Shown here: positions 16,923 through 22,132 of the stretch, one piece after another
Position numbering within the stretch: position 1 is the stretch's first letter
Layout of the letters: each line of letters starts with the position of its first letter
Origin: an uncultured Psychroserpens sp.
Lineage (GTDB): Bacteria; Bacteroidota; Bacteroidia; Flavobacteriales; Flavobacteriaceae
DNA length: 64,000 bases
Reading direction: 5' to 3'
Assembly: GCF_947492715.1 (NCBI RefSeq)
Contig: NZ_CANLNS010000001.1
Coordinates: forward strand, 992,001-1,056,000
Notes under the pieces: model-generated
What the model saw: the letters and a program-made list of their open reading frames with translations, nothing else
Database searches by the model: none
Told to the model about the DNA's origin: nothing
Program-made: the position numbers and the translations under genes

Positions 16923-17987
16923 TTATTTCGAAAATGAATCGAAAATATTTCTCAAATCCTTTTTATAAGGCAGGTGATCTGCTCTACCTTTTTTAAATAT
17001 GTCATTGCTATTTCCTTGCCCCTTTCTTAGCGCTTTTTGTTCATCATAAGGAAGTCTATTTACTTCCATACATGCGGTCGAACAGCAATTCTCCATGTGC
17101 TCTTTGCAAGATGCGCATTGAATAAATAAAAGATGACAAGCTTCATTAGCACAATTCGTATGCATATCTGCAGGTTGGCCGCACTGATGACAATTGGCAA
17201 TAACGTCTTCACTTATGCGTTCAGATCGTCTTTGATCGAAAACAAAATTCTTACCTAAAAACTTATTCTCTAAGTCATTGGCTTCAACCTGCCTCACGTA
17301 GTTAATAATTCCGCCTTCCAGCTGGAATACATTTTTAAATCCTTTATGTTTATAGTATGCACTCGCTTTCTCACAACGAATCCCTCCAGTGCAATACATC
17401 ACTAAATTCTTGTCTTCTTTATGTTCCTTTAAGTCTTCTTCTATTAAATCTAACGACTCTCTAAACGTATCAACATCTGGAGTAATAGCGTTCTTAAAAT
17501 GCCCTATTTCACTTTCATAGTGGTTGCGCATATCTACCAAAACAGTATTGGGATCTTCAATAAGATTGTTGAATTGTTCGGCACCTACATGAACCCCTTT
17601 ATTTGTCACATCAAACGTATCGTCGTTCAATCCGTCTGCCACTATTTTTTTACGCACTTTAACTTTCAGTTTTAAAAATGCAAAATTATCATGCTCAACA
17701 GCAATGTTTAATCTTACATTTTCTAAAAATGTAATAGTATCTAAGTGATTTTTAAATGTTTCAAAGTTTTCTGCTGGAACAGAAAGTTGGGCATTAATTC
17801 CTTCATGAGCCACGTATATTCTACCTAGGACATCTTGTTCGTCCCACGCTAAAAACAAATGATTTCTGAAAATTTCGGTATTGCCAATTTTGGCGTACTT
17901 GTAGAAAGAGATTGTTAAGCGTTCTTTTCCCGCTTTTTCAATAAGTTCGGCTCTTTCCTTAGCACTTAAGTTATTGTACAGTTGCAT
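16923..17987 (-). CDS. trhO: tRNA uridine(34) hydroxylase TrhO (rhodanese family, YceA)
   Basis: 354 aa. An N-terminal UPF0176/YceA domain (INAQLSVP near residue 65) is followed by a rhodanese domain with the active-site loop YCTGGIRCEKAS (Cys199) and a C-terminal Cys-rich region with CHQCGQPADMHTNC and CASCKEHMENCC, a likely zinc-binding extension found in many family members. TrhO makes 5-hydroxyuridine at position 34 of some tRNAs using oxygen and prephenate-independent chemistry. The gene is monocistronic with a strong promoter at 18028-18057. Confidence 0.93.
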   Translation of the reverse strand: MQLYNNLSAKERAELIEKAGKERLTISFYKYAKIGNTEIFRNHLFLAWDEQDVLGRIYVAHEGINAQLSVPAENFETFKNHLDTITFLENVRLNIAVEHDNFAFLKLKVKVRKKIVADGLNDDTFDVTNKGVHVGAEQFNNLIEDPNTVLVDMRNHYESEIGHFKNAITPDVDTFRESLDLIEEDLKEHKEDKNLVMYCTGGIRCEKASAYYKHKGFKNVFQLEGGIINYVRQVEANDLENKFLGKNFVFDQRRSERISEDVIANCHQCGQPADMHTNCANEACHLLFIQCASCKEHMENCCSTACMEVNRLPYDEQKALRKGQGNSNDIFKKGRADHLPYKKDLRNIFDSFSK

Positions 17988-18027: not shown

Positions 18028-18057
18028 CAAAGATATTCTTTTTCAAAGAATATCAAA
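18028..18057 (-). promoter_or_regulatory. trhO promoter, Bacteroidota sigma-A type
   Basis: On the minus strand TTTG (18057-18054), an 18-nt spacer and TATCTTTG (18035-18028) match the consensus TTTG/TAnnTTTG perfectly. The predicted start is about 35 nt upstream of the ATG at 17987. Confidence 0.75.
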
Positions 18058-18065
18058 TGCTTGTA

Positions 18066-18104
18066 ATAAAAAAGCCCTTTAGACTTTCTAAAGGGCTTTT
18101 TTGA
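18066..18104 (-). terminator. Strong intrinsic terminator downstream of the 41-aa gene
   Basis: AAAAAAGCCCTTTAGA / TCTAAAGGGCTTTTTT is a long GC-cored stem with U-tracts on both strands. It lies between two divergent annotated genes (trhO and recA), so the transcript it ends must start in between, consistent with the small gene at 18157-18282. Confidence 0.85.
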
Positions 18105-18109
18105 GGACT

Positions 18110-18158
18110 AACTCGTTATTAATATTTTAAAATGTTCATCTTAAAACTAATACGAGTT
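18110..18158 (-). repeat. Long imperfect inverted repeat after the 41-aa gene
   Basis: On the minus strand AACTCGTATTAGTTTTAAGA pairs with a 3' arm ending TATTAATAACGAGTT (about 22 bp with small bulges, almost no loop). It begins at the stop codon of the small gene and precedes the terminator. Confidence 0.65.
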
Positions 18159-18282
18159 AGCCTCCATCGGCTTTACAATTACTGTTTACATGGACAGTAA
18201 CTGAAACACCTAATGCGTTGTTAAAAATAATTTTTCTAAAAAATCTCATTCCTCTGTAAGAATTGAATTTTGGATAAGCCAT
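18157..18282 (-). CDS. Candidate small protein, 41 aa, unrecognised
   Basis: An ATG at 18282, immediately after an in-frame stop, opens a 41-codon frame ending TAA at 18157. The protein starts MAYPKFNSYRG, continues with a basic, hydrophobic MRFFRKIIFNNALGVSVTVH stretch and ends NSNCKADGG, with one Cys. A second possible start at 18249 would give 30 aa. I do not recognise the family and see no signal peptide. Support for a real gene is contextual: an ECF-like promoter 39 nt upstream of the start, nearly identical to the one driving the sigma-factor operon on the other side of recA, and a long stem-loop plus an intrinsic terminator just downstream. It may be a small membrane-active or regulatory peptide; alternatively the transcript could act as an RNA. 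Confidence 0.45.
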   Translation of the reverse strand: MAYPKFNSYRGMRFFRKIIFNNALGVSVTVHVNSNCKADGG

Positions 18283-18320
18283 TTAAGGCTTGGTTATCAT
18301 AGCAAGATTTCCCAATCTCA

Positions 18321-18355
18321 ATTAGTAGATGCAAAAACTTTAAAAAGGTTGCGTC
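18321..18355 (-). promoter_or_regulatory. ECF sigma-type promoter of the 41-aa gene
   Basis: On the minus strand GACGCAACCTTTT (from 18355), then TGCATCTACTAAT (18333-18321), with 13 nt between CC and TGCATCTA. It matches the element at 19493-19527 in 25 of 26 box positions and in spacing. Confidence 0.65.
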
Positions 18356-18435
18356 ATAACCCTAAAAAAAATTAAAAGATGTTGTATTTTAGCTTTCCGC
18401 TATCAAAATAGTATTCATTAAAAATATTCAGATCA

Positions 18436-19434
18436 ATGAGCAGTGAAAAAGAAGCAAAATTAAAGGCATTAAAACTAACATTAGACAAACTAGACAAGGC
18501 ATACGGAAAGGGTACCGTTATGAAGATGAGTGACCAAGCAGTCATAGATGTAGATTCGATTTCTTCTGGATCTTTAGGTTTAGATATTGCTTTAGGTGTT
18601 GGTGGTTATCCTCGAGGACGCGTTATAGAAATATATGGCCCAGAATCATCAGGTAAAACAACATTAACATTACACGCTATTGCTGAGGCACAAAAAGCTG
18701 GAGGTATTGCTGCTTTTATTGATGCAGAACACGCCTTTGACAGAACATATGCCGAAAACTTGAATGTAGATATTGATAATTTAATTATTTCTCAACCTGA
18801 CAATGGAGAGCAAGCTCTAGAAATTGCAGATAATCTTATCCGTTCTGGTGCAATTGATATTGTGGTTATAGATTCTGTAGCGGCCTTAACACCTAAAAGT
18901 GAGATTGAAGGCGAAATGGGAGATTCAAAAATGGGATTGCACGCTCGATTAATGTCTCAAGCCCTAAGAAAATTAACAGGTTCTATTAGCAAAACGAATT
19001 GTACAGTAATCTTTATTAACCAATTGCGTGAAAAAATTGGTGTTATGTTCGGAAACCCTGAAACAACAACTGGTGGTAATGCATTAAAGTTCTACGCTTC
19101 TGTACGTTTAGATATTAGACGATCAACACAAATTAAAGAATCTGACGGAAATGTTGCTGGAAACAAGACTAGAGTAAAAGTTGTAAAAAACAAAGTAGCT
19201 CCTCCTTTTAAAATGTGTGAATTTGATATCATGTATGGTGAAGGAATTTCTAAAGTGGGAGAAATATTAGATATTGCTGTAGATCTCGAAATTATAAAAA
19301 AGAGCGGATCATGGTTTAGCTATGGAGACACCAAGTTAGGTCAAGGAAGAGATGCTGTAAAAGCATTAATAAAAGATAATCCAGAATTAATGGAAGAGCT
19401 AGAAGATAAAGTTCGAGAAAGCATTAATTCTTAG
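18436..19434 (+). CDS. recA: Recombinase RecA
   Basis: 332 aa, typical for flavobacterial RecA. The N-terminal segment [14 protein letters not shown], the Walker A motif GPESSGKT (about residues 66-73), FIDAEHAFD, the L1/L2 loop regions ([34 protein letters not shown]) and the GWFSYG-like [16 protein letters not shown] segment near the C-terminus are all present. It forms ATP-dependent filaments on single-stranded DNA for homologous recombination and, where LexA exists, stimulates LexA cleavage. The gene is monocistronic with its own terminator. I see no clear LexA box or sigma-A promoter upstream. Confidence 0.98.
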
Positions 19435-19454
19435 GCAATAATCACATATAAAAT

Positions 19455-19486
19455 AAAAAAATCCCTCTTTTTGGGATTTTTTTTTG
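19455..19486 (+). terminator. recA intrinsic terminator
   Basis: AAAAAATCCC / GGGATTTTTT stem followed by nine T residues, 20 nt after the recA stop. Confidence 0.85.
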
Positions 19487-19492
19487 TTTTTA

Positions 19493-19527
19493 GACGCAAC
19501 CTTTTGCTATGTTGTGCATCTATTAAT
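19493..19527 (+). promoter_or_regulatory. ECF sigma-type promoter of the lipoprotein-sigma-anti-sigma operon
   Basis: GACGCAACCTTTT (19493-19505) and TGCATCTATTAAT (19515-19527), with 13 nt between CC and TGCATCTA. The -35-like box has the AAC core seen in many ECF promoters. It lies 30 nt upstream of the lipoprotein ATG, consistent with autoregulation by the sigma factor encoded in this operon (inference). Confidence 0.65.
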
Positions 19528-19556: not shown

Positions 19557-19973
19557 ATGAATATGAAAAAGATAATTTTATTAAGCTTTTTGATGTTTTC
19601 GTTGTTCTCTTGTGAGATTTCAGACGACAACCCAAATTTTTATTATGAAGCCTTGCCTGTTGAATCTGTGGATATGCCTGAAACATTTCAATTTGGTGAA
19701 ACCTATGAAATTTTGTTGACTTATATAAAGCCAACAGATTGCCACGTGTACAACAACTTGTTTTATGAAAGTGATTTAAATCAACGGGATATTGCAATAG
19801 TTACTGCAGTATTTCCTGATAATGGATGTACTGAACTTAATGAAGAGGAAGAAGTTTCTTTTAATTTTAAAGTAACAAATACAGGCATATATACATTTAG
19901 GTTTTGGCAAGGCGAAGATTCTAGTAGTGGTCTTGACACCTATTTGATTGTAGAAGTTCCAGTAGAAGAATAA
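19557..19973 (+). CDS. Putative lipoprotein of unknown function, first gene of an ECF sigma operon
   Basis: 138 aa; an alternative ATG two codons in (19563) is equally possible. The N-terminus MKKIILLSFLMFSLFSCE is a lipoprotein signal with a lipobox ending in Cys, so the mature protein (about 118 aa) should be anchored in the envelope. The mature part is acidic, predicted to be a beta-rich single domain, with FQFGETYEILLTYIKPTDCH, DNGCTELN and a final strand-like DTYLIVEVPVE; two Cys could form a disulfide. I do not recognise a family. Its position, 21 nt before an ECF sigma gene and directly after an ECF-like promoter, suggests a sensor or target in the same envelope response. Confidence 0.75.
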   Translation: MNMKKIILLSFLMFSLFSCEISDDNPNFYYEALPVESVDMPETFQFGETYEILLTYIKPTDCHVYNNLFYESDLNQRDIAIVTAVFPDNGCTELNEEEEVSFNFKVTNTGIYTFRFWQGEDSSSGLDTYLIVEVPVEE

Positions 19974-19994: not shown

Positions 19995-20537
19995 TTGAGT
20001 TTAGAACAACTCATAGAGCGATGTAAAAAAAATGATGCTCAAGCACAAAGTCAACTATATAAGCTATATGCGAGTAAACTGTTTTCGATTTGCTTGAAGT
20101 ATTCACGTAACTATGCCGAGGCAGAAGACAATTTGCAGGATGCATACATTACGGTTTTTAAAAAAATAGATCAGTTTAAAAACAAAGGCTCTTTAGAAGG
20201 TTGGATGAAACGAATAACGATTAACACTGCATTACAAAGGTATAGAAGTGCTGGTGTTTTTGACATTATTAATGAAGATCGAATTGAAGATGTAAGCGTT
20301 GATGTAGATGATGATGATATTAGCATTGATTTTTTGCTAAACATTATTCAAGAATTACCTGATCGTTATCGATTGGTATTTAATTTATATGCCTTAGACG
20401 ATTATTCGCATAAGGAAATTGCGAACATGTTAGATATTTCGACAGGAACATCAAAATCAAATTTAGCTAGAGCTAGATTGATTTTAAAAGATAAAATAGA
20501 ACAATACAAAGCGAAACCCAATTCGCAAAGTTTATAA
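19995..20537 (+). CDS. RNA polymerase ECF sigma factor
   Basis: 180 aa, starting at a TTG (MSLEQLIERCKK after initiation) with no ATG nearby, which fits the usual N-terminus of this group. Region 2 is AEDNLQDAYITVFKKIDQF followed by GSLEGWMKRITINTALQRYR; region 4 is DDYSHKEIANMLDISTGTSK with a helix-turn-helix. It should direct RNA polymerase to a small set of promoters, probably including GACGCAACC-13-TGCATCTA at 19493 and 18321 (inference). Its TAA stop overlaps the ATG of the next gene by one base (TAATG), coupling it to its presumed anti-sigma factor. Confidence 0.9.
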   Translation: MSLEQLIERCKKNDAQAQSQLYKLYASKLFSICLKYSRNYAEAEDNLQDAYITVFKKIDQFKNKGSLEGWMKRITINTALQRYRSAGVFDIINEDRIEDVSVDVDDDDISIDFLLNIIQELPDRYRLVFNLYALDDYSHKEIANMLDISTGTSKSNLARARLILKDKIEQYKAKPNSQSL

Positions 20538-22132
20538 TGAGTGAAAAGAAAAACATAGACAAACTCTTTAAAGAGCAACTCAAAGATTTTGAGGTTGCTC
20601 CTAATGATGCTGTCTGGGAAAATATAGAGCGTGAGCTCCATAAAGACAAGCGCAAGCGTCGTGTTATTCCTATCTGGTGGAAAATAGCAGGTGTTGCCGC
20701 TGCGTTACTTTTATTATTTACCGTAGGACAAAAATTGTTTAGTCCTAATGACAGTGCTATCGAGCAAGAAGTTGTTGATACAAATAAGTCAAGTAACGAT
20801 ACTAGCAATGATACTAACGATACAGGTAACACAAAATCTTCAGACTTAAATACATCTAAAGATTTAGACGATACGCCAATTGTAGATAATCATAATTCTA
20901 AAAATGATGACCACAGTAGTATCACCGACAATTCAAACAACGATTTAACAAATTCAGAAGATTCAAATAACAAAACGACAGTAGTCTCTTCAAAAGAAAA
21001 AAAGAAGACATCATCATTTAAAGATAAATCGCTAATAAAAAACAAATCTTTGAAAGAACATGCCGTTGCAAATAAAAATAACAACCAACTTCCTCAGAAA
21101 AATAAAACAAAGACAGCAACCACTGTTAACACAAACAAAGAAGCTGTAGCCAATACCTCAAACGATTCTAAATTAAACAAAGACAATGATTTAAACCCTG
21201 TTAACAAGGAGAAATCTGAAATTGACAAACTCATAAATGACATCAAAAAATCTAAAGAAACTCAAGTAACTTCTTCGACTCCTGATAAAGAAAATGCGGC
21301 ATTAGCTATAGATACATCAAAATCAAAAGACGCAATTAAAAAAGAAAATGATATTGAAACAGCCATTGCAGAAGCCGAAAAAAATAAAGATGAAACCGAA
21401 GAACCAGAAGAGCTTCTAAAACGCTGGAGTGTTGCTCCTAATGTAGCACCTGTTTATTTTAATACTCTAGGGAAAGGATCTCCAATTGACGATCAATTCA
21501 TTAACAACACCAAAGAAGGCGATGTTAATGTAAGTTATGGTGTTAAAGGAAGTTATGCTATTAATAAAAAATTAAAAATTAGAGCTGGTATTAATAAGGT
21601 AGATCTTGGGTATACTACAAATAATGTTGTGGCATTTACAAGACCTACAAGCTCTGGTAATAATACGAGGCAATTGCAAAATATTAAGCTTCATGATTCT
21701 ACCACCACATTTATTAGTGCCAATAGTATAAGCTATACAACTGGTCCTGAGATTCTATTTACAAAAGAACAAGGCTCAATAGACCAACAGCTTGGTTTTA
21801 TTGAAGTACCAATAGAAGTTGAGTACAGCCTAATAGATAAAAAAATAGGCTTAAACCTTATTGGAGGGTTTAGTACGCTGTTTTTGAGTAATAATGAAAT
21901 ATACTCGGTTCAAAATAATGGCGATAGAGCATTTTTAGGTGAAGCTACAAATATTAACGATATGAGTTATAGTGCCAATTTTGGAATTGGAGTGAACTAT
22001 AACATTTCAAAACAATTACGATTTAATCTTGAACCTACGTTCAAGTATCAAATTAACACCTTTAATGATACGTCTGGTGATTTCCAACCGTTCTTCATTG
22101 GTGTTTATACAGGACTTAGTTTTAAGTTTTAG
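20537..22132 (+). CDS. Anti-sigma factor fused to an outer-membrane beta-barrel (dual membrane-spanning type)
   Basis: 531 aa. Residues 1-45 are cytoplasmic and helical (KLFKEQLKDFEVAPNDAVWENIE), typical of the anti-sigma segment in this group. A single inner-membrane helix follows (about 46-66, WWKIAGVAAALLLLFTVG). Residues about 70-290 are a long Asn/Ser/Asp/Lys-rich low-complexity linker, long enough to cross the periplasm. Residues about 295-531 are a beta-barrel of alternating strands ending in Phe (LSFKF), the outer-membrane insertion signal. The same architecture has been described in Bacteroides as dual membrane-spanning anti-sigma (Dma) factors controlling ECF sigma factors and vesiculation. 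It is translationally coupled to the sigma gene. Barrel strand number and ligand cannot be told from sequence. Confidence 0.8.
   Translation: MSEKKNIDKLFKEQLKDFEVAPNDAVWENIERELHKDKRKRRVIPIWWKIAGVAAALLLLFTVGQKLFSPNDSAIEQEVVDTNKSSNDTSNDTNDTGNTKSSDLNTSKDLDDTPIVDNHNSKNDDHSSITDNSNNDLTNSEDSNNKTTVVSSKEKKKTSSFKDKSLIKNKSLKEHAVANKNNNQLPQKNKTKTATTVNTNKEAVANTSNDSKLNKDNDLNPVNKEKSEIDKLINDIKKSKETQVTSSTPDKENAALAIDTSKSKDAIKKENDIETAIAEAEKNKDETEEPEELLKRWSVAPNVAPVYFNTLGKGSPIDDQFINNTKEGDVNVSYGVKGSYAINKKLKIRAGINKVDLGYTTNNVVAFTRPTSSGNNTRQLQNIKLHDSTTTFISANSISYTTGPEILFTKEQGSIDQQLGFIEVPIEVEYSLIDKKIGLNLIGGFSTLFLSNNEIYSVQNNGDRAFLGEATNINDMSYSANFGIGVNYNISKQLRFNLEPTFKYQINTFNDTSGDFQPFFIGVYTGLSFKF

Follow-up and report, generated by a model that had tools for sequence, protein, structure and literature searches.

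The window, a 64-kb stretch of the genome of an uncultured Psychroserpens species that was analysed as a whole, contains a recA gene flanked by two short, near-identical sites that point away from it. To the right of recA lies an operon for a small lipoprotein, an ECF sigma factor and an anti-sigma factor. To the left, on the opposite strand, lies a short unit with a small open reading frame (ORF), followed by a gene that we take to be trhO/yceA. Positions refer to the window.

16923 to 17987, minus strand: rhodanese-family gene, presumably trhO/yceA, the next gene on the same strand as the small unit
18028 to 18035, minus strand: TATCTTTG (TAnnTTTG), likely the housekeeping -7 box that serves trhO separately, lying past the terminator
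18069 to 18101, minus strand: predicted intrinsic terminator of the putative small transcript
18103 to 18164, minus strand: hairpin enclosing the stop codon, GAGG-CTAACTCG ... CGAGTTAG-U-CCTC
18157 to 18249, minus strand: 30-codon ORF plus stop, MRFFRKIIFNNALGVSVTVHVNSNCKADGG
18292 to 18319, minus strand: putative transcript 5' end with a conserved element, GAGATTGGGAAATCTTGCTATGA, which forms a short hairpin, then TTGCTATGA
18326 to 18355, minus strand: left, outward ECF-type promoter with GACGCAACC (-35), 13 nt and TGCATCTA (-10), facing the small RNA/peptide unit
18436 to 19434, plus strand: recA (Pfam and NCBIfam matches), between the two outward promoters
19455 to 19483, either strand: terminator between recA and the right promoter, scoring on both strands
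19493 to 19522, plus strand: right, outward ECF-type promoter, serving the lipoprotein-sigma-anti-sigma operon
19557 to 19973, plus strand: small lipoprotein, first gene of the operon, a predicted beta-sandwich with conserved Cys62 and Cys91
19995 to 20537, plus strand: ECF sigma factor with a TTG start (Sigma70_r2 and Sigma70_r4_2), proposed reader of both promoters
20537 to 22132, plus strand: Dma-like anti-sigma factor with predicted cytoplasmic helices, one transmembrane helix, a tether and a C-terminal outer-membrane-protein beta-barrel

Read from the window sequence, the left site (minus strand, 18355-18321) is GACGCAACCTTTT-TAAAGTTTT-TGCATCTACTAAT and the right site (plus strand, 19493-19527) is GACGCAACCTTTT-GCTATGTTG-TGCATCTATTAAT. 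As the original prediction had it, 25 of the 26 box bases are identical and the distance from CC to TGCATCTA is 13 nt at both. With up to three mismatches allowed, GACGCAACC-N13-TGCATCTA matched the 64-kb window only at these two positions, both exactly. Dinucleotide-preserving shuffles of the window (n = 100) gave a mean of 0.08 matches, and none contained two. Across the whole 4.2 Mb genome, CGCAACC-N13-TGCATCTA was found four times exactly, seven times with up to one mismatch and 11 times with up to two; at up to three mismatches there were 58 matches against 42 in the reversed control, and these are mostly chance.

A peptide-profile search of genome contigs yielded 68 named Flavobacteriaceae loci, among them some from Psychroserpens, Gelidibacter, Flavivirga, Algibacter, Olleya, Lacinutrix, Bizionia, Xanthomarina, Mangrovimonas and Winogradskyella. 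recA is divergent from the peptide unit at every one of them. The motif (up to two mismatches) was present within 450 nt upstream of the peptide in 67/68 loci, and a second motif pointing away from recA was present no more than 700 nt past its end in 66/68. Comparison of the two intergenic regions in related genomes thus bears out the paired arrangement, with both motifs kept in 65/68 loci. The sigma operon adjoins the right-hand side of recA in 66/68 loci, and 62 have trhO downstream of the peptide, the other six being without trhO there. Among the exceptions, L221 and L267 are truncated by contig ends on the sigma side, L264 has its right-hand copy farther from recA, and L266 is without the left-hand motif. 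The promoter boxes are constant across the loci and the spacer is variable, like a phylogenetic footprint. A chance repeat, already judged improbable when the sites were first noticed, is ruled out by the shuffles and by the conservation of the pair.

The two recA-flanking sites of one genome have spacers that resemble each other more than those of different genomes do (0.632 against 0.587 when permuted; reached in 0/5000 permutations; 66 of the 68 loci, L221 and L266 omitted). No such excess was seen outside the promoters, either in the 15 nt upstream (938/5000) or in the 22 nt downstream (1337/5000). With permutation restricted to clusters of relatives (the 62 loci in clusters of two or more), 3/5000 permutations reached the observed value, and the effect was weaker against the five nearest relatives, with 39 of 66 genomes above and 27 below. 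Spacer pairs in L268, L271, L272, L281, L285, L279 and L287 are alike, up to complete identity or shared odd bases; L287, for example, has CATCTT in both. Coevolution with the sigma factor or short-tract conversion would both explain this likeness.

The proposed small RNA unit and its 30-codon reading frame

The left site was originally assigned to an unannotated 41-codon frame. That it faces a small unannotated gene agrees with the presence of the motif upstream of a conserved peptide in nearly all loci, although the frame as first drawn starts 11 codons too early: the conserved ORF has 30 codons and begins at the ATG at 18249, codon 12 of the longer frame. The 41-codon reading was rejected because homology in many relatives starts near Met12 and some have in-frame stops upstream. 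Among the 68 relatives the peptide has 30 codons in 54 and 28 in 14, with an ATG start in all. It ends in C[KR][AS]DGG in 68/68, an invariance that is partly ascertainment, since N[SG][NH]CK[AS]DGG was one of the two seeds of the scan that gave these loci. An expression requiring the GG end returned 54 loci from 31 genomes, all of 30 codons and ending in CK[AST]DGG, and a seed-free direct protein search found the peptide in 31/97 genomes.

The median dN/dS of the peptide was 0.27 (1190 pairs, 68 loci). Mean pS/pN was 0.481/0.178 in frame, compared with 0.264/0.224 and 0.319/0.215 in the other two frames. These values show coding selection on the 30-codon ORF, and we consider it very probable that the peptide is translated. 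Within the family, the peptide profile matched 72/395 genomes and 40/203 genera. In a phylum sample of 394 genomes the peptide was found in five, four of them from its own family (own genome included); the single match outside the family was weak, contained stops and was rejected. A Shine-Dalgarno sequence was dropped as general support for the start because AGAGG occurs only in a few close relatives. In a subset of the genus (L047, L049, L050, L051, L052 and L053), some 130 additional nt separate the 5' element from the start of the peptide, an insert that leaves both unaffected.

Folding of the unit in the window, 18319 to 18069, is much more favourable than that of its shuffles (z -8.2). 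The 5' element is conserved together with the promoter in the 33 rows of the alignment (A2), chosen by hand from 50 listed reference rows. TTGCTATGAAA was not enriched genome-wide, with 8 matches against 8 in the reversed control, and was therefore rejected as a generic translation-start context. RNAalifold on the raw MAFFT alignment (A3, 21 of the 22 sequences) returned the terminator only and no stop-codon hairpin, so the hairpin was tested by per-sequence folds. Thirty loci were tried, of which eight had no match to the regular expression (28-aa or variant peptides). In 22/22 folded sequences the stop codon was paired with the 3' arm of the hairpin, with compensating changes seen by eye in distant genera. 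The 3' arm, TTAGYC, is present in 67/68 loci, and a terminator-like stem likewise in 67/68. Rfam gave sub-threshold matches only; identity with BTnc231 was rejected at 26.9 bits, against the gathering score of 80.4.

To follow the unit beyond the peptide, we used a sequence model of the promoter and transcript 5' end (R1). At E < 1e-9 it matched 59/199 genomes (about one per genus; hand count), and the element is thus not universal. By hand count, 31 of these 59 genomes have the peptide and 28 do not, G209 being counted without inspection of its sequence. In 10 genomes of the large genus g138, R1 gave no strong match (best E 2e-5). The 28 peptide-less loci examined comprise 27 of the R1 set and G198, which falls just above the E cut. 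A search of these loci with the peptide profile recovered no intact copy, and 9/9 controls were found. All 28 keep the promoter, the 5' element and divergent recA, and 27 keep the terminator; the median length of the predicted RNA is 105 nt. CTA[AG]CTC, which in the peptide-coding RNAs corresponds to the hairpin arm containing the stop codon, occurs in 13/28 peptide-less RNAs (0.13 expected). Relics of the peptide were recognised in L200 (E 0.0024) and L197 (E 0.23), and a decayed remnant in L195 by eye. All three decayed copies sit in units that retain the promoter, the 5' element and the terminator.

Our main reason for proposing a function for the RNA is that, where no intact peptide is left, the promoter and the 5' element are still there and the terminator usually is too; we regard the small RNA as fairly likely to be a functional entity in its own right. 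The idea of a peptide made with the sigma operon is therefore borne out in part: the peptide ORF is conserved, but the left unit is also a structured RNA, predicted to be terminated, whose promoter and 5' end persist at 28 loci without an intact peptide, with the terminator at 27 of them. A simpler account would make the left unit only the mRNA of a small protein, with a 5' segment for translation initiation, a hairpin and terminator that stabilise the message, and no regulatory RNA. Such an account accommodates the strong coding signature, the loci whose conserved ATG is itself the start of the peptide (L078, L083, L110, L164, L167) and the similar TTTGCTATGAAAA contexts at the lipoprotein start in L101, L102 and L112. 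It fits poorly with the 28 loci that retain the unit with no intact peptide, some of them with relics, with the window genus, where the conserved ATG does not open the peptide, and with the lack of enrichment of TTGCTATGAAA in the genome. We consider it unlikely, though it is the alternative that survives best.

Sigma factor, anti-sigma factor and proposed regulon

The 180-aa product of the gene at 19995 matched Sigma70_r2 (1.6e-14) and Sigma70_r4_2 (4.2e-15) and contains regions 2 and 4 only, as is characteristic of ECF sigma factors. The sigma factor keeps 83% identity or more in each of the 22 genomes of the same genus that were searched. The right site does face a lipoprotein-ECF sigma-anti-sigma operon, as had been predicted, with the same arrangement in 66/68 loci.

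We then scanned 10 genomes, chosen by hand, for the motif with up to one mismatch. This gave 43 matches, 3 to 6 in each genome, and none in the reversed control. Twenty-four of the sites lie away from the recA pair, and 21 of these are followed within 260 nt by an ORF of 60 aa or more that starts with ATG; the other three had no qualifying ORF by the same definition. As judged by eye, all 21 products begin with a signal or lipoprotein peptide. Seven weaker, hand-picked sites in the own genome added six more exported-type ORFs. The survey thus took in 31 sites, namely all 21 non-recA sites of the nine other genomes and 10 hand-picked sites of the own genome (three within one mismatch, seven weaker), 27 of the 31 with an ORF. 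Two own-genome sites inside ORFs (L009 and L010, two mismatches to the shorter motif) were left out.

A strict lipobox expression was positive in 13/27 ORF products. The site lies 14-56 nt upstream of the exported-protein genes, and about 141 nt upstream of a TonB receptor. Several families, named by eye, recur: a 145-aa lipoprotein (L003, L317, L295, L322), behind which the own genome has a second lipoprotein; an OMP-like protein 181-192 aa long (L005, L288, L294, L314); a lipoprotein whose ORF spans about 175 aa (L007, L320, L321); and a SusC-like TonB receptor with the site about 141 nt upstream in three species (L316, L319 and, weaker, L006). The receptor sites suggest that the regulon reaches TonB-dependent uptake. 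A widespread motif in front of housekeeping genes is ruled out by these counts: the motif is rare and goes with genes for exported proteins. Of the small two-unit regulon first proposed, the shared regulon stands, but it has more than two units.

A paralog of the sigma factor with 50-55% identity occurs in 14/23 genus genomes (own included). The operon of the own-genome paralog (G000:C1:294216-294731, L181) also begins with a lipoprotein. We compared the upstream regions of 12 of the 15 paralogs with at least 50% identity (L181 and 11 relatives, L328-L335 and L337-L339). The TGCATCTA -10 motif was found in 0/12 of these regions. Seven of the 12 operons have the same -35, CGCAACCTTTT (CGCAACC), but AGACTA at -10; in the other five, GCAACC was not found in the 1.3 kb examined for each. 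Where readable, the -10 box would thus separate the 19995-type and paralog systems.

Both sites flanking recA are most likely promoters of one ECF sigma factor, the 19995 sigma. This assignment is well supported, if not proven, because the motif is rare, precedes exported-protein genes and differs at -10 from the paralog operons. The original proposal that this sigma factor reads both sites is in line with synteny, motif rarity and the paralog comparison. As to the core of the proposal, we are highly confident that the two sites are ECF promoters of the same type in one conserved regulon. Reading by a different ECF sigma factor (such as the paralog at G000:C1:294216) or by several would be consistent with the -35 shared by 7/12 paralog operons, and overlapping ECF regulons have been suggested in F. 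psychrophilum (Guerin et al., PMC9723704). We think this rather improbable, given the absence of the TGCATCTA -10 from all 12 paralog operons and a 19995-type sigma that adjoins recA and the motif in 66/68 loci.

The anti-sigma factor has 531 aa, and its predicted model has a mean pLDDT of 61, with the barrel part mostly above 80. The model has helices at 4-16, 24-38 and 46-68 and a strand-rich domain at 297-529, which Foldseek aligned with the OmpA, OmpW and NspA barrels. Residues 69-291, a tether of about 220 residues, are mostly of very low confidence and mostly disordered. A transmembrane helix was recognised by hydropathy in 65/66 relatives. Dma proteins are described with the same order of parts (Pardue et al. 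2026, PMC13088901): N-terminal helices that bind the sigma factor, putatively so here, then one transmembrane helix, an extended disordered tether and a barrel at the C terminus. In Bacteroides thetaiotaomicron, Das1-Dma1 and Das2-Dma2 each pair an ECF21 sigma factor with a dual membrane-spanning anti-sigma factor (PMC13088901). By analogy, the 19995 sigma would be of the Das/Dma type (ECF21), an assignment that rests on the predicted architecture of its neighbour.

As in Das/Dma, the operon is probably autoregulated, judging here from the motif and there from the rise of das2 in a dma2 mutant (PMC13088901). In a system of the Das/Dma type, sigma release would be expected to change vesiculation or the outer membrane. 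Unlike Das/Dma, the present system belongs to marine Flavobacteriaceae, adjoins recA and has a small lipoprotein first in the operon. Its regulon would also include a small RNA/peptide unit, which sets it apart from Das/Dma as described in the available part of that report, where the words 'motif' and 'small RNA' occur zero times in the main text (PMC13088901). The model of the lipoprotein is confident (mean pLDDT 90.4) and had no match in the PDB with E ≤ 0.001. Pfam gave no match at E ≤ 0.01; among 27 relatives, two matched a lipoprotein attachment-site model and nothing else. The lipoprotein is possibly a sensor partner of the barrel anti-sigma factor.

trhO, recA and the probable independence of the left unit

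The TAnnTTTG box was present in 62/62 recognised trhO upstream regions, compared with 6.4% in shuffles. With a box of its own for trhO, the left unit therefore looks independent of this gene. The left transcript could otherwise be a trhO leader or attenuator, in which peptide translation and the stop-codon hairpin decide terminator readthrough. The order of the genes (trhO next on the same strand in 62/68 loci) and the stop codon within a hairpin just before the terminator are what such a leader would call for, and an ECF-type (SM6) start in F. psychrophilum has been assigned to a YceA rhodanese-related gene (PMC9723704). But trhO has its own box in all recognised cases, is not at that position in 6/68 loci, and the peptide-less versions keep the terminator; an unsystematic look noticed no anti-terminator pairing. 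An attenuator is thus very unlikely, and we keep to an independent unit.

In F. psychrophilum, transcription starts were mapped by Guerin et al. 2021 (PMC9723704). The SM6 ECF-type starts there include one before the YceA rhodanese gene and one for a putative small RNA, Rfp11; the -10 box of SM6 is CGT, and SM6 is linked to genes for type IX secretion (PMC9723704). Both systems, then, have ECF-type promoters in this family, which in F. psychrophilum include one before the trhO-like gene and one for the putative RNA. They differ in the -10 box, CGT there and TGCATCTA here, and R1 had no strong match in the 10 genomes of the related genus g138. Judging from sequence and from the part of the report available, the YceA start of F. 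psychrophilum may mark the equivalent locus.

That the inverted repeat is a DNA element for recombination, inversion or recA regulation instead of a promoter pair can be practically discounted: the inversion around recA and the greater likeness of spacers within genomes (0/5000 permutations; 3/5000 within clusters; only 39/66 against nearest relatives) would suit it, but the motif also occurs away from recA upstream of exported-protein genes, the excess similarity is limited to the promoter, and the anatomy of the sites is typical of ECF promoters.

A model of the regulon and comparison with known systems

The promoter pair and its relatives elsewhere in the genomes probably define a Dma-type regulon of the outer membrane that includes a small RNA, in some cases coding as well, and that follows a sigmaE-MicA/RybB-like logic. 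From the architecture of the anti-sigma factor, we infer that an outer-membrane signal would release the sigma factor. The released sigma factor would transcribe the operon that encodes it, a limited number of genes for lipoproteins, outer-membrane proteins and TonB receptors and, divergently from recA, a small terminated RNA. In the window this RNA would be about 250 nt long and carry the 30-aa peptide, the stop codon of which lies within a stable hairpin. Where other genera have no peptide or a decayed one, the RNA would have a predicted median length of about 105 nt and share the promoter, the 5' element and the terminator. The RNA would act on its putative targets as the post-transcriptional arm of the response, as MicA and RybB do for sigmaE. 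It would also double as the mRNA of a conserved peptide, with a presumed function of its own, in roughly half of the genera where the element is strong.

MicA and RybB are sigmaE-dependent small RNAs of enterobacteria. Small RNAs of this kind base-pair with mRNAs of outer-membrane proteins, and an envelope-responding ECF sigma factor drives both the short terminated RNA and envelope genes. A like arrangement is predicted here from the promoter motif, the synteny and the terminator-like stems. The likeness is one of logic, between systems with no known sequence relation; a difference is that here the RNA also encodes a peptide in about half of the genera where the element is strong. SgrS/SgrT is a dual-function small RNA, and like it the left unit has the look of a short regulatory RNA that also contains a conserved small ORF. 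It differs from SgrS/SgrT in phylum, in promoter class and in the stop codon embedded in a hairpin.

More speculatively, the unit might be a dual-function RNA of an outer-membrane stress regulon in which translation sets the activity of the RNA, so that the ORF is both gene and switch. A ribosome finishing the C-terminal DGG-stop would then open the hairpin and expose CTA[AG]CTC or its partner strand for pairing. We hold this to be doubtful. The degrees of confidence voiced here for the promoters and their regulon, the small RNA, translation of the peptide and the switch are judgements, not computed values.

Among the matches listed in the open-licence literature, no description of the small RNA or the peptide was found, and the available parts of PMC7366714, PMC12596196 and PMC12045153 contained nothing on this locus. 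Recent work on Dma-type sigma/anti-sigma systems in Bacteroidota gives, in the text available, no promoter motif and no RNA arm. The locus supplies testable candidates for both, namely a highly specific promoter with its compact group of genes for exported proteins, and a conserved RNA that carries a 30-aa peptide. Genera that have the peptide and genera that lack it form a natural series for separating the function of the RNA from that of the protein. With such a regulon, the principle of envelope-stress small RNAs would reach past the proteobacteria. In this large group of marine bacteria, one outer-membrane switch appears to turn on its own genes together with an overlooked small RNA across recA.
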